Shown here: positions 2,318-11,077 of the stretch, piece by piece | Layout of the letters: every line of letters starts with the position of its first letter | Position numbering within the stretch: position 1 is the stretch's first letter | Assembly: GCA_009785395.1 (NCBI GenBank) | Contig: WQWK01000040.1 | Span: 1-11,677 of the forward strand | Length of the DNA stretch: 11,677 bases | DNA from: Conexibacteraceae bacterium | Lineage (GTDB): Bacteria > Actinomycetota > Thermoleophilia > Solirubrobacterales > Solirubrobacteraceae | Reading direction: 5' to 3' | Translations under genes and position numbers: made by a program | The notes under the pieces: generated by a model | The model's database searches: none | Seen by the model: only the letters and a program-made list of their open reading frames with translations | What the model was told of the DNA's origin: nothing

Positions 2318-3004
2318 GTGGCATTGGAAAGGGAGGACACCATCACTGAAATGATCGAGGGGCACCTGGGGGACGAGGAGGTCATCGAGGACCTCGACGA
2401 TCTCGCGCCGCTGCCGCAGGCCGAATTCGAGGTCGGCGACAACGTCGTGTATCCGCACCATGGGGCGGGCAAGGTGCTCAAGAAGGAGATGAAGGACGTG
2501 CTCGGGGAGAGTCGTGAGTACCTCACGATCAGGATCCTGCACAACGAGATGACGGTGATGGTCCCGACCGAGAACGCCGCGCTTGCCGGCCTGCGCCGCG
2601 TGGTCGACGAGGAGATGCTGGAAAAGGTCCTCGCCGTGCTTCAGGACGAATGCTCGGACATGCCCAAGAACTGGAACCGGCGCTTCAAGCACAACCGCGA
2701 CAAGATCAAGACGGGCGACATCTACGAGCTCGCGGCGGTTGTGCGCGACCTCGCCATCCGGGAGCACCAGAAGGGACTCTCGACCGGCGAGAAGCAGATG
2801 TTCACGCGAGCGAAGAAGGTCCTCTGCTCCGAGATGATGTACGCGCTTGATATGGACGAGGAGCAGGTGGACGGCCACCTGACGAGCGTGATCCTCGACG
2901 GGGCGGGTAACGCCAAAGCGGTGAAGATCACGACCGACAAGGTGACGGTTGAGACCGACTCGGTGACGATCGAGACCGAGTCGGTGACGGTCAGGGCCGA
3001 GTAG
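2318..3004 (+). CDS. carD: CarD family RNA polymerase-binding transcription factor
   Basis: CarD/CdnL proteins bind the RNA polymerase beta subunit and stabilise open promoter complexes, notably at rRNA promoters. Numbered from GTG 2318 (228 residues), a Tudor-like polymerase-interacting domain spans about 37-92 (FEVGDNVVYPHHGAGKV). A helical DNA-binding domain follows at about 95-190. W119 in PKNWNRR corresponds to the tryptophan known in mycobacterial CarD to wedge into the upstream edge of the bubble. The protein is longer than the ~160 residues of mycobacterial CarD: it has an acidic N-terminal extension and a Thr/Val-rich repeated C-terminal tail. The start is uncertain. GTG 2318 has no clear Shine-Dalgarno sequence, ATG 2351 has one 14 bases away, and an ATC at 2342 has ideal spacing. 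ispD starts 13 bases after the stop. Confidence 0.93.
   Translation: MALEREDTITEMIEGHLGDEEVIEDLDDLAPLPQAEFEVGDNVVYPHHGAGKVLKKEMKDVLGESREYLTIRILHNEMTVMVPTENAALAGLRRVVDEEMLEKVLAVLQDECSDMPKNWNRRFKHNRDKIKTGDIYELAAVVRDLAIREHQKGLSTGEKQMFTRAKKVLCSEMMYALDMDEEQVDGHLTSVILDGAGNAKAVKITTDKVTVETDSVTIETESVTVRAE
2330..2336 (+). promoter_or_regulatory. Strong Shine-Dalgarno sequence before or inside carD
   Basis: AGGGAGG here is the best ribosome-binding sequence in this part of the window, but it fits no usual start codon well. It lies inside the carD frame if GTG 2318 is used, 14 bases before ATG 2351, and 5 bases before an in-frame ATC at 2342. It argues that the true carD start is downstream of 2318. Confidence 0.5.
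2933..2995 (+). repeat. Three in-frame 21-base repeats encoding the CarD C-terminal tail
   Basis: Codons 206-226 of carD form three successive seven-residue units: TDKVTVE, TDSVTIE and TESVTVR. Each is 21 bases. Alternating Val/Ile and Thr suggest an amphipathic beta strand or small beta repeat. The unit pattern is read directly from sequence; its role is unknown. Confidence 0.8.
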
Positions 3005-3017
3005 CGGCCTGGACAGT

Positions 3018-3686
3018 ATGGCCGTCGCGCTGGTCGTTGCCGCGGGGCGTGGCGAGCGCCTTGGGTCCCGGGGACCCAAGGCGCTCGCCAGCGTTGCCGG
3101 CCGCCCGATGCTCGAATGGAGCCTGCTCGCGCTGCGCTCGGTGGCCGCCATTGAGACGATCGTGGTGGCTCTGCCCGCCGACCGGCTCGACGCCGCGCCC
3201 GCGGACGTGACCGCGGTGGCCGGCGGGGATACACGATCCGAGTCTGTGCGCGCCGCGCTGGATGCGGCGCCGCGGAGCGAGGTCGTGATCGTCCACGACG
3301 CCGCGCGCGCGCTGGTGACGGCCGAGCTGTTCGCCGCGGCGATCGCCGAGTTGGAGCTGACCGGCGCCGACGCGGTGGTGGCCGCGGCACCGGTGACCGA
3401 CACGATCAAGCAGGTCTCGGAGGGCGGGCGGATCGTCGAGCTGACGCTCGACCGATCACGGCTGTGGGCCGTGCAAACCCCACAGGTGTTTCGTCGCGCG
3501 GCGCTCGGGCGCGCGCTGGCGGCGCCGCCCGAGCTGCTGGCGGCCGCCACCGACGACGCCTGGCTGATCGAGCGCCAAGGCGGTACGGTCGCCGTGTTGC
3601 CCGCCCCGGCTGAGAACTTCAAGATCACGACGCCGCTCGACCTGCGCGTGGCCGAGCTATTGCTCGGCGAGAGGGCTGGGCGATGA
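3018..3686 (+). CDS. ispD: 2-C-methyl-D-erythritol 4-phosphate cytidylyltransferase IspD
   Basis: IspD catalyses the third step of the MEP isoprenoid pathway: MEP plus CTP gives CDP-ME and pyrophosphate. The 222-residue protein matches the family length of about 220-240. It begins with the nucleotidyltransferase loop AAGRGERLGSRGPK (residues 8-21; K21 is the conserved lysine). It also has VHDAAR (94-99), AVQTPQVFR, TDDA (substrate-side acidic residues) and NFKITTPLDL near the C-terminus. ATG 3018 puts the loop at the usual distance from the N-terminus; the ribosome-binding site is weak, consistent with coupling to carD. The stop overlaps the ispF start by four bases (ATGA), implying translational coupling of two enzymes of one pathway. 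Codons 12-24 form a perfect palindrome, listed separately. Confidence 0.97.
   Translation: MAVALVVAAGRGERLGSRGPKALASVAGRPMLEWSLLALRSVAAIETIVVALPADRLDAAPADVTAVAGGDTRSESVRAALDAAPRSEVVIVHDAARALVTAELFAAAIAELELTGADAVVAAAPVTDTIKQVSEGGRIVELTLDRSRLWAVQTPQVFRRAALGRALAAPPELLAAATDDAWLIERQGGTVAVLPAPAENFKITTPLDLRVAELLLGERAGR
3051..3089. repeat. Perfect 39-base palindrome inside ispD
   Basis: Bases 3051-3069 are the exact reverse complement of 3071-3089 around a single central base (3070). The arms are GGCGAGCGCCTTGGGTCCC and its complement, giving 19 pairs with no mismatch. It covers exactly codons 12-24 of ispD (GERLGSRGPKALA), the CTP-binding loop. Because codon phase is preserved, the - strand reads the same peptide with one change (GERLGSPGPKALA). 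In RNA it could form an 18-pair stem with a 3-base loop, starting 33 bases after the A of the start codon. Confidence 0.97.
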
Positions 3687-4168
3687 GCGTCGCCACCGGG
3701 CTCGGCTATGACTGCCACGCGCTGGTCGAGGGGCGGCCGCTGGTGATCGGCGGCGTCGAGATCCCGCACACTCACGGCCTGCTCGGGCACTCGGATGCCG
3801 ACGTGCTGACGCACGCGATCATCGACGCCCTGCTCGGAGCCGCCGCGCTCGGCGACATCGGCCAGCACTTTCCCGACACCGACGAGCGCTACCGCGGCGC
3901 CGACTCGATCGAACTGCTGCGCGTGACCGTGGCGCTCTTGATCGAGCACGGCTGCGCAATCGAGCACATCGACGCGACGGTCATGATCGAGCGGCCGAAG
4001 CTGTTGCCGCACCGGGGCGCGATCCAGGCTCGGCTCGCCACGGCGATGGGCTTGTCCGACCCTCAGCTGAACGTCAAGGCCACGCGCGGGGAGGGGATGG
4101 GCTTCATCGGCCGGCTCGAGGGCGCAGCGGCGCTGGCGGTCGCCACCATAACCCGGCCGAGCGACTAA
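3683..4168 (+). CDS. ispF: 2-C-methyl-D-erythritol 2,4-cyclodiphosphate synthase IspF
   Basis: IspF cyclises CDP-ME 2-phosphate to MEcPP with loss of CMP, working as a trimer with zinc at the active site. The protein is 161 residues, the normal length. Metal ligands are visible: GYDCH (D9, H11) near the N-terminus. The signature GHSDADVLTHAIIDALLGA and GDIGQHFPDTD follow. The C-terminal KATRGEGMGFIGR replaces the common KATTTEGLGFTGR. ATG 3683 overlaps the ispD stop by four bases and has GAGGG at 3671-3675, seven bases upstream. The order ispD-ispF is the usual one; the intermediate kinase ispE is elsewhere. Confidence 0.97.
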   Translation: MSVATGLGYDCHALVEGRPLVIGGVEIPHTHGLLGHSDADVLTHAIIDALLGAAALGDIGQHFPDTDERYRGADSIELLRVTVALLIEHGCAIEHIDATVMIERPKLLPHRGAIQARLATAMGLSDPQLNVKATRGEGMGFIGRLEGAAALAVATITRPSD

Positions 4169-9766: not shown

Positions 9767-9839
9767 GCCCGCTTGGCGCAACTGGTAGCGCACCTCACTT
9801 GTAATGAGGCGGTTGTCGGTTCGAGTCCGACAGCGGGCT
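9767..9839 (+). tRNA. tRNA-Thr (anticodon UGU)
   Basis: It folds as a full cloverleaf. The acceptor GCCCGCT (9767-9773) pairs with AGCGGGC (9832-9838), and U is the discriminator base. The D arm contains AACTGGTA. The anticodon stem CCTCA/TGAGG encloses the loop CTTGTAA, with TGT at 9800-9802 reading threonine codons ACA/ACG by wobble. The T arm is GTCGG-TTCGAGT-CCGAC. CCA is not encoded. It stands alone between the permease and the phospholipase D-like gene. Confidence 0.97.
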
Positions 9840-9852
9840 TGCGTTTCGCATC

Positions 9853-9860
9853 AGGAGGTG
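9853..9860 (+). promoter_or_regulatory. Orphan Shine-Dalgarno-like sequence AGGAGGTG
   Basis: A nearly perfect complement to the 16S 3' end, 13 bases after tRNA-Thr. No ATG, GTG or TTG follows at 5-10 bases; the next plausible start (ATG 9891) is 30 bases away. It may be chance, a tRNA trailer element, or a remnant of an earlier start. Confidence 0.3.
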
Positions 9861-9890
9861 TCACGGGGGGAGCCCTCGGGCGACCCTGCA

Positions 9891-10967
9891 ATGAGGTCAC
9901 GTGAGGAAATGGTCAGCGTCGCCAGAAAATTGAGAGCCCTGTGCATGGCAGCCGCGGCCGTGGCCGCTATGGCTGCTCTCGGGGCCTCATCGGCGGCGGC
10001 CGCCGGCACACACGGATCGAACGCCGTCTATTACAAGCTCGTCCAGTATCCGAAGGCCGGGTTCGGCGGCTTCTACACGCAGATCGCGCAAGCCAAGCAT
10101 GCGATCGACATGGAGATCTACGAGCTCAGCGATCCGACCGCCGAACGTGACCTGGCGGCGGCGGCCAGGCGCGGCGTCAAGGTTCGGGTACTGCTCGACA
10201 AGGACTTCACCGGCGGTGAGGTCAACGCGTCCGCCTACTCGTACTTGGTAGCCCACGGTGTGAGTGTCAAATGGGCGCCGCCCCGGATCATCTTCCACAT
10301 CAAGGCGACGACGTTCGACGGGCGCACGGCCGACGTATCGACCGCCAACCTGACGGCCGCCTACTACGCCAGCACTCGCGACGCCACGGTGATCGATACC
10401 AACCCGGCGCAGGTCAAGGCGATCGAGGCCACCTTCGCCAACGACTGGAACGCGGCCCCGAACGGTCAGCCGGGCGCGCACACCGTCCAGGCGTCGGGCC
10501 TGGTCTGGTCCCCCAATACGTCGGGCGACCCGGCGGAGGCGGCGATGGTCGGACAGATCAAGTCGGCCAAGCACCTCGTCGAGGTCGAAAGCGAGGAGCT
10601 CAGTGACCAGGCGGTGTATGGCGCGCTCGCGGCCGATGCGCGGCGCGGTGTGACCTGCAGGATCGTGATGACGGCATCGTCGGATTGGACGAAGGCGTTC
10701 ACCGCCGTGACCCAGGCCGGATGCCAGGTCCACGTCTTCCCGGACAGCGCCAAGTCGCTCTACATCCACGAGAAGTTCGTGCTCGTCGACCCCGGCAGCC
10801 GCAACGAGTCGCTGCTGATCGGCTCACAGAACGCCAGCTGGGACTCGCTCAACTCCAATCGCGAGCTCGGCCTGCTGATCCAGGACGCACACGGCGGCAA
10901 GAGCGTGATCGCCGGTGTTGCCGGCGCTTTCCAGAGCGACTTCAGACAGGCCTCAGCCTGGTCCTAG
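9891..10967 (+). CDS. Secreted phospholipase D-like protein with two HKD motifs
   Basis: From ATG 9891 the protein has 358 residues. The first ~42 form a signal peptide: basic RKLRAL, hydrophobic AAAAVAAMAALGASSAAAA, likely cleavage near AAA-AG. Two PLD domains follow. The catalytic HxK(x)4D motifs are intact: HIKATTFD (H136, K138, D143) and HEKFVLVD (H293, K295, D300), each followed by an Asn-containing segment (STANLTAAY; IGSQNASWDS). The superfamily includes phospholipases, cardiolipin synthases and Nuc-type nucleases; a secreted form without membrane anchors suggests an extracellular hydrolase, substrate unknown. The frame is open back into the tRNA gene, so upstream starts are rejected. 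ATG 9909 is an alternative, with GAGG only two bases before it. It appears monocistronic, ending before strong hairpins. Confidence 0.88.
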   Translation: MRSREEMVSVARKLRALCMAAAAVAAMAALGASSAAAAGTHGSNAVYYKLVQYPKAGFGGFYTQIAQAKHAIDMEIYELSDPTAERDLAAAARRGVKVRVLLDKDFTGGEVNASAYSYLVAHGVSVKWAPPRIIFHIKATTFDGRTADVSTANLTAAYYASTRDATVIDTNPAQVKAIEATFANDWNAAPNGQPGAHTVQASGLVWSPNTSGDPAEAAMVGQIKSAKHLVEVESEELSDQAVYGALAADARRGVTCRIVMTASSDWTKAFTAVTQAGCQVHVFPDSAKSLYIHEKFVLVDPGSRNESLLIGSQNASWDSLNSNRELGLLIQDAHGGKSVIAGVAGAFQSDFRQASAWS

Positions 10968-10974
10968 AGGGACA

Positions 10975-10991
10975 GGTGCGAGCCTCGCACC
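10975..10991 (+). terminator. Perfect 8-bp inverted repeat after the phospholipase D-like gene
   Basis: GGTGCGAG, single C, CTCGCACC, starting 7 bases after the TAG stop. It abuts the second hairpin directly, and its GCACC arm is complementary to the GGTGC that begins that hairpin. No T-run follows. Confidence 0.55.
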
Positions 10992-11021
10992 GGTGCTACT
11001 GGCTAGCTGGCCAGTAGCACC
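10992..11021 (+). terminator. Perfect 12-bp inverted repeat, likely terminator
   Basis: GGTGCTACTGGC and GCCAGTAGCACC pair perfectly around TAGCTG. It is the strongest hairpin between the phospholipase D-like gene and the acyltransferase. It lacks a T-run but would terminate or protect the 3' end. The remaining 56 bases to the next start contain a weak CCCGC/GCGGG repeat (11048-11063). Confidence 0.65.
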
Positions 11022-11077
11022 GCCAGACGCGCTCTTGCCTGTAACGGCCCGCCCCGGCGCGGGTACCGATTAGTGCG

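Follow-up and report, generated by a model that had tools for sequence, protein, structure and literature searches.

The 11,677-nucleotide stretch of DNA analysed here (the window) carries a long palindrome near the start of the ispD coding sequence. A palindrome in this position might simply be dictated by the peptide that it encodes, or it might be kept for itself, in which case the purpose that it serves must be sought. A first-pass annotation had described a perfect palindrome of 39 bases at 3051..3089. The perfect repeat is present, although its true span is 41 bases (3050-3090), with one additional pair on each side of the segment first described. The two 20-bp arms are 100% complementary, are separated by 1 nt, and run from position 3 of codon 11 to position 1 of codon 25 in ispD (Table 1). 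As the same annotation had noted, the 39-base segment corresponds to codons 12-24, which are exactly 13 codons in frame within the ORF at 3018-3686, and the antisense strand encodes the same peptide with R changed to P (GERLGSPGPKALA). When folded as RNA, the 151 nt around the palindrome yield -92.3 kcal/mol compared to a mean of -77.7 kcal/mol for shuffled sequences (z = -3.73), and none of 200 shuffles folded as well.

The gene row in the window is radA (TIGR00416), disA (NF010009), carD, ispD, ispF, cysS (TIGR00435) and rlmB (TIGR00186), where the order radA-disA-carD-ispD-ispF is of the Solirubrobacterales type. Several other repeats are found in the window. The CarD protein ends in a repetitive tail (2924-3001; KITTDKVTVETDSVTIETESVTVRAE) whose coding region holds a 16-nt inverted repeat (88%) at 2954-2985. 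A 22-nt inverted repeat (3631-3652 and 3714-3735; 91% complementary, 61 nt apart) spans the 3' end of ispD and the 5' end of ispF, and could enclose the ispF start. A gapless 16-nt inverted repeat (10991-11022; 94% complementary) is located just 3' of a PLD-like ORF (9804-10967; PF13091), which is a terminator-like position.

Table 1. Features of the carD-ispD-ispF region and of the hairpin within ispD.
Feature	Coordinates	Strand	Evidence or remark
carD, encoding a CarD-type RNA polymerase regulator, upstream of the hairpin	2318..3004	+	PF02559 CarD_TRCF_RID, 58.4 bits; PF21095 CarD_C, 115.1 bits; both above cut-offs
carD-ispD spacer, 13 nt	3005..3017	+	sequence
ispD	3018..3686	+	TIGR00453, 200.7 bits (cut-off 181.3)
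Left arm of the perfect 20-bp inverted repeat	3050..3069	+	codon 11 (third base) to codon 18 (first base)
Left half of the 15-bp stem, codons 12-16	3051..3065	+	kept across much of group A; pairs with 3075-3089
Glu codon 13	3054..3056	+	coevolution of its third base with codon 23 (first base)
Rare Leu codon CTT, codon 15	3060..3062	+	pairs with AAG, codon 21
Inner codons 17-19, mostly variable	3066..3074	+	all paired in the window; pairing less complete in relatives
Right arm of the perfect 20-bp inverted repeat	3071..3090	+	codon 18 (third base) to codon 25 (first base)
Right half of the conserved stem, codons 20-24, PKALA	3075..3089	+	
ispF, next in the row	3683..4168	+	TIGR00151, 190.5 bits

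Collection of related loci

Regions containing ispD were gathered from named contigs, from a class sample of 299 genomes and from an order sample of 232 genomes. Removal of 43 duplicates and of 47 loci without the 13-residue motif spacing left 186 loci. Group A comprises the 114 nearer loci, with phmmer scores of at least 178 bits to the IspD of the window, and these are mostly Solirubrobacterales where titled. Group B comprises the 72 farther loci below this score, among them some from the order search. A carD homologue is found close upstream of ispD in 108 of the 114 group A loci, and the remaining six records begin merely 69-458 nt ahead of the motif. Searches for hairpins from the carD stop codon into ispD were carried out on loci with carD close upstream (108 of 114 in group A, 42 of 72 in group B). 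The loci are related by descent, and per-locus counts are therefore not independent. Two Solirubrobacterales-type carD-ispD regions come from genomes titled Bifidobacterium breve (L042) and Chlamydiae bacterium (L020), whose bins look mislabelled.

Contribution of the peptide sequence

The peptide segments GERLG and PKALA are antiparallel-complementary, such that middle codon bases pair with middle codon bases and third bases pair with the first bases of the other arm. The first-pass annotation judged the palindrome to be far outside chance, and this judgement must be qualified. About 11 of the 19 pairs are expected from the peptide and the codon usage of relatives alone, but the choice of codons is extreme: given peptide and clade codon usage, the exact codon set of the window has P = 3.5e-7, and its pairing score was reached in none of 4000 synonymous resamplings. 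Peptide complementarity accounts for part of the palindrome only.

Codon choice in group A as a whole is similarly skewed. The codon CTT, which makes up ~4% of Leu codons in the rest of the relatives' ispD genes, occupies codon 15 in 57 of the 93 group A rows that share the peptide, compared to 4.5 expected, and codon 15 is the most biased of the 210 ispD codons scored. Among the 22 most biased codons in this group, seven are in the 13 motif codons that form the stem-loop and 15 are not, with six in the nine codons before it and nine elsewhere. Raised codon bias in group A extends beyond the stem.

Base pairing across relatives

Pairing between codons 12-16 and codons 20-24 was compared to a null in which only synonymous codons are exchanged. 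Group A exhibits a mean z of 2.15, with 72 of 114 loci above 1.64, whereas group B has no excess (mean z -0.05; six of 72 above 1.64). The difference persists when the peptide is held constant. In the 93 group A rows encoding GERLG...PKA[LF], third bases form Watson-Crick pairs in 744 cells compared to 435 expected, whereas the 33 group B rows with the identical peptide show no excess (132 compared to 143 expected). When 484 centres were scanned along ispD in group A, this hairpin was the single outlier (mean z 1.72; next 0.56). In an alignment limited to the 72 group A rows with z above 1.64, 93.5% of the cells of the conserved 15-bp stem are paired among 69 distinct rows, a value that leans upward because of this selection.

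When the best hairpin between the carD stop codon and approximately ispD codon 31 was compared to a matched null, 82 of 108 loci in group A and four of 42 in group B were significant (p ≤ 0.05). Of these 82 hairpins, 63 reside in ispD codons 12-24, four are somewhat upstream and 15 are in the spacer. The other 26 group A loci, including near relatives of the window (L004, L008, L010 and L021), lack a significant junction hairpin. Among cultured strains, Svornostia abyssi J379 (L016) and Conexibacter arvalis DSM 23288 (L032) carry the hairpin, and Conexibacter sp. S30A1 (L004) does not. A hairpin near ispD codon 140 is present in four loci that have none near the ispD start (L004, L008, L010 and L251). 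A perfect inverted repeat of 15-16 bp is found ~380 nt after the motif in L001, L008 and L251, and L001 has both hairpins. Such downstream hairpins are not clearly commoner in loci without a junction hairpin (four of 26) than in those with one (seven of 82).

The hairpin does not appear to be a general trait of Actinobacteriota, judging from 50 loci examined in a phylum sample of 139 genomes, of which 136 carry ispD. Of these loci, 31 were dropped for an absent motif. Significance at p ≤ 0.05 was reached in two of the 19 analysable loci, just nine of which have carD close upstream.

These data bear on the simplest alternatives, which are that a complementary peptide and codon bias coincide by chance or that the palindrome was created during assembly. 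The ~11 expected pairs lend coincidence some initial appeal, but it is contradicted by synonymous resampling, by the pairing excess that group A shows and same-peptide outgroups do not, by the junction-hairpin test and by the tree-based coevolution described below. Regarding an assembly artefact, which the first-pass annotation had raised as a concern, the hairpin is common to the records of many different assemblies. We consider both explanations exceedingly improbable.

Coevolution of the two arms

Codon 23 encodes Leu or Phe in most rows, and this choice tracks the third base of the Glu codon at position 13. GAG occurs with Leu in 44 rows and GAA with Phe in 39, while GAG with Phe (12) and GAA with Leu (2) are less frequent. 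When the tree is inferred from columns outside the hairpin, Phe23 and GAA13 show strong support for correlated evolution (LR 43.5, p = 8e-9), and the fitted rate from Phe23 to Leu is 4.25 with GAG at codon 13 and 0.01 with GAA. The outermost pair, formed by CGT at codon 11 and an A starting codon 25, exhibits the same trend. The two features occur together in 21 rows, CGT alone in 10, A alone in six and neither in 37 (Fisher 2.6e-6), with correlated evolution on the tree at LR 15.1 and p = 0.005. In group B, codon 25 starts with A in 14 of the 16 such rows and CGT is found in two. Well-supported branches offer only 5 and 7 independent sister contrasts, which do not reach significance by themselves, and for this reason the likelihood test was used. 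For codon 13, an average of 2.8 of the 5 contrasts take the expected direction, and none takes the opposite one.

The first-pass annotation proposed that the arms be examined for covariation at synonymous positions, and the window's relatives give a positive answer, with both a pairing excess and coevolution. The RNA fold might even constrain the protein, such that hairpin pairing decides which amino acid is allowed in the nucleotide-binding loop of IspD, an essential enzyme. We offer this only tentatively and regard it as somewhat doubtful.

Relocation of the hairpin at the carD-ispD junction

In 14 of the 108 group A loci, the spacer is ~60-114 nt long and carries a long hairpin of its own. 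Some group A loci with a long spacer have no hairpin in ispD and instead place an unrelated long stem right after the carD stop codon, as in L240, where this stem has 15 perfect bp. An alignment of 14 of the 15 significant spacer loci (L040 was omitted) revealed double changes at six of 14 pairs, amounting to 11 cells compared to 2.9 in shuffles. A third placement, a few codons earlier in ispD, is exemplified by the 14-bp stem of L168.

Hairpins in the spacer and in ispD are nearly exclusive of each other. With thresholds of our choosing (12 for the spacer, 10 for ispD), 13 loci have only a spacer hairpin, 64 only an ispD hairpin, one has both and 30 have neither (Fisher 1.8e-5, for spacer-hairpin loci that are related to each other). 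Expressed differently, a spacer hairpin is found in 13 of the 43 relatives without an ispD hairpin compared to one of the 65 with it.

The hairpins are also specific to this junction. Those scoring at least 12 within 115 nt after a gene occur in group A at 57 of 109 loci for carD, but at one of 112 for ispD and one of 95 for ispF, and they are absent after radA (0 of 44), disA (0 of 101), cysS (0 of 33) and rlmB (0 of 12) and from random windows (0 of 1068). The corresponding numbers for group B are two of 64 after carD, one of 72 after ispD, one of 60 after ispF and one of 669 random windows. Most group A loci share a long Watson-Crick stem in the ~115 nt that follow the carD stop codon, and both its sequence and its place are exchangeable. 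We conclude, with a probability of roughly 0.95, that a hairpin is maintained at the carD-ispD junction in this Solirubrobacterales group, probably by selection.

This turnover between spacer and ispD fits the first-pass proposal that the hairpin might separate carD expression from ispD expression. It also bears on the possibility that the hairpin tunes the translation of ispD, either by slowing early ribosomes or by coupling initiation to the termination of carD translation. The 63 of 82 significant hairpins in ispD codons 12-24 are suitably placed for such a role. However, spacer hairpins end ~8-57 nt before the ispD start, estimated in these loci as 33 nt before the motif, and cannot affect elongating ribosomes, which makes translational tuning very unlikely.

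Comparison with known elements and dispersed repeats

An intrinsic terminator, with a GC-rich hairpin followed by a U-tract, was considered and rejected because no U-tract follows the stem. The mean T fraction in the next 10 nt is 0.29 for hairpins of the ispD type, 0.13 for shifted hairpins and 0.18 for spacer hairpins. A search of Rfam with positions 2800-3300 of the window gave no match at the gathering score, with the best at 24.2 bits compared to 74.

Covariance models were then searched against 61 genomes of the order. For the ispD-hairpin model (R1), all matches above 33.2 bits fall in ispD. Of 20 matches of previously unknown place that were fetched, 16 are within IspD-coding sequence, and scores of 31.3-33.2 bits belong to the remaining four; matches weaker than these were checked in part. 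A second model (R2) has matches in five of the 61 genomes, exceeding 31 bits only in G153 and G112. The several copies per genome that characterize a dispersed regulator-binding palindrome or a REP-like repeat were found with neither model. One genome has equal-scoring matches on two contigs (G191:C16:285-323 and G191:C44:9741-9779, the latter L402); the L402 match also encodes IspD, and represents a duplicate contig or a second gene copy.

Perfect inverted repeats with arms of at least 13 were also counted elsewhere in the collected sequences. There are 10 in 603 kb of group A (three in shuffles) and nine in 372 kb of group B (two in shuffles). Such long repeats exceed codon-order shuffles in both groups, and group A is no richer than group B.

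These searches address the view that the element acts at the level of DNA, as a cruciform or as a palindromic protein-binding site at the carD-ispD junction. The first-pass annotation had included a protein-binding site among its suggestions, and a dispersed one is disfavoured by the confinement of R1 matches above 33.2 bits to ispD, with only the four of 31.3-33.2 bits elsewhere. Watson-Crick symmetry without strand preference is what a DNA element would exhibit. However, unrelated sequences serve at this junction, unlike the case for a binding site, and group A has no surplus of long inverted repeats elsewhere. Overall, we consider a DNA-level element distinctly unlikely.

The inverted-repeat counts bear equally on mutational self-perfection, in which a quasi-palindrome that arose by chance undergoes replication template switching, such that each arm is repeatedly corrected by copying its partner and no function is needed. 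This process would explain strict Watson-Crick pairing, the absence of a G-U preference and the coevolution of the arms. It has been described for RNA hairpins (PMC8794818), and accounts of template switching in coding sequences have been published as well. The hairpins maintained by template switching in PMC8794818 likewise have perfect stems with paired changes, but what is described there is a mutation process rather than a function. Against this process, the identical peptide in group B shows no pairing excess, and long perfect inverted repeats are no commoner elsewhere in group A than in group B. In paralogous RL...PK loops from the same order, CTT is found in none of 17 rows, although their longer loop makes them an imperfect control, and CTT does occur in two of the related loops that have AK in place of PK (L345 and L355). 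A first set of paralogues (30 PF00483 loci) proved to be nearly all AK rather than PK, and the 17 usable rows derive from a second set of 20 regions. Self-perfection also does not predict a replacement hairpin in the spacer. As the sole cause it is therefore unlikely, but template-switch mutation may help to perfect the palindrome.

Strand preference of the hairpins

Pairs that are permitted in RNA on only one strand offer a means to distinguish among sense RNA, antisense RNA and DNA. Sense-strand G-U pairs are not favoured in the ispD hairpin (50 compared to 95 expected), and A-C mismatches, which correspond to G-U in the antisense RNA, number 65 compared to 78 expected. Spacer stems contain seven A-C cells compared to two G-T cells. 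The G-U shortage counts against a purely sense-RNA element, because such an element should show the reverse. Furthermore, the antisense strand folds better in 10 of the 14 spacer hairpins, in one of them by 0.1 kcal/mol only. Across the region of the ispD hairpin, folding is more stable for the sense strand, by 4.7 kcal/mol in group A and by 3.2 kcal/mol in group B. Given the results that disfavour sense RNA, a process at the level of DNA, template switching or an antisense RNA to carD could each play a part.

The last of these has a precedent in AscarD of Mycobacterium smegmatis, which is reported to run from ispD across carD (PMC8820732). By analogy, the hairpin would serve as the stabiliser or the stop of an antisense RNA initiated within ispD and extending over carD. 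Both the greater tolerance of A-C over G-T and the folding of the spacer hairpins favour this arrangement. On the other side, literature searches on CarD in Solirubrobacterales and on RNA structure in Thermoleophilia yielded no report of an antisense transcript in this group, and the sense strand is the better folder in the ispD hairpin region, though group B shows the same. In addition, the fitted path of coevolution passes via a sense G-U pair (Phe with GAG), which codon bias would also predict. An AscarD-like RNA is therefore an unlikely explanation on present evidence. AscarD resembles our candidate in placing post-transcriptional control of carD in the carD-ispD region, but it is an antisense RNA from another family, and its description in PMC8820732, as far as considered here, mentions no hairpin.

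A candidate roadblock that shields the carD mRNA

The anatomy of the hairpin is closest to that of the protective 3' structures involved in differential operon decay in Escherichia coli (Dar and Sorek 2018, PMC5927463), and it is from this likeness that we infer a mechanism. The hairpin would act in a carD-ispD transcript, on the 3' side of the carD mRNA. Cleavage or Rho-type termination inside ispD would come first, after which 3'-to-5' exonucleases would halt at the hairpin, such that the carD mRNA would survive and the ispD-ispF mRNA would decay. The outcome would be much CarD and little IspD from a single transcript. We give an even chance to this proposal that the stem is a roadblock shielding the carD mRNA and that carD and ispD are expressed at different levels. 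Co-transcription of the two genes in this group is assumed from gene spacing; in M. smegmatis, carD-ispD is called an operon (PMC8820732).

Of the 26 E. coli structures for which protection of an upstream gene is proposed, 17 are described as sitting in the downstream gene, 107 +/- 56 nt in, without a U-tract (PMC5927463). The features reported for that class recur here: a hairpin at the junction (82 of 108 group A loci), mostly embedded early in the downstream ORF (63 of 82) and without a U-tract, along with conservation of third codon positions in which codon 15 ranks first. Unlike the E. coli structures, those described here are from another phylum and are known from sequence comparison alone. 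They also display a shift of the hairpin between spacer and ORF and arms that coevolve across an amino acid change, which are not seen for the structures as presented in PMC5927463.

A second parallel is the E-hairpin of the E. coli galE-galT junction. It lies near the start of galT, the downstream gene, after a junction of 9 nt, and is reported to block 3'-5' exonucleases after Rho-dependent termination (PMC9239205). The E-hairpin has an 8-bp stem and has been shown experimentally, whereas the stems described here reach up to 20 bp and are predicted. The malE-malF and puf stem-loops (discussed in PMC5927463) resemble the spacer version, which would likewise shield the upstream mRNA from 3'-5' decay, but they are purely intercistronic and belong to other operons, unlike the ispD-embedded hairpin. 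No earlier report of a carD-ispD hairpin was found among the open-licence papers listed for ispD, CarD, Solirubrobacterales or Thermoleophilia.

Several observations weigh against the roadblock, among them the small number of sister contrasts and the codon bias beyond the stem noted above. Ribosomes translating ispD would melt a hairpin positioned 33 nt into the gene, 26 of 108 group A loci have no significant hairpin, and the G-U shortage together with the better antisense folding of 10 of 14 spacer hairpins is not what a sense RNA would be expected to show.

Should the roadblock nevertheless be the correct reading, it would be written into the codons of the IspD nucleotide-binding loop because the spacer is just 13 nt in the window. 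It would exploit the freedom of third codon positions and partly steer the choice of amino acid at codon 23. The dependence of Phe23 rates on codon 13, together with the codons freed where the spacer holds the hairpin, suggests that the carD mRNA may have borrowed the coding space of its neighbour and that some lineages may have returned it.

Most coding sequences that double as RNA signals have come to light through experiments in model bacteria. In the present case, sequence comparison by itself points to a candidate RNA signal next to a transcription-regulator gene in an order that has received little study. The approach also distinguishes palindromes that merely follow from the encoded peptide from those that are retained in their own right. 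The alternative placements in relatives, in the spacer or within the enzyme gene, would constitute a natural experiment on the purpose of the hairpin and on the limits that RNA structure may set on protein evolution.
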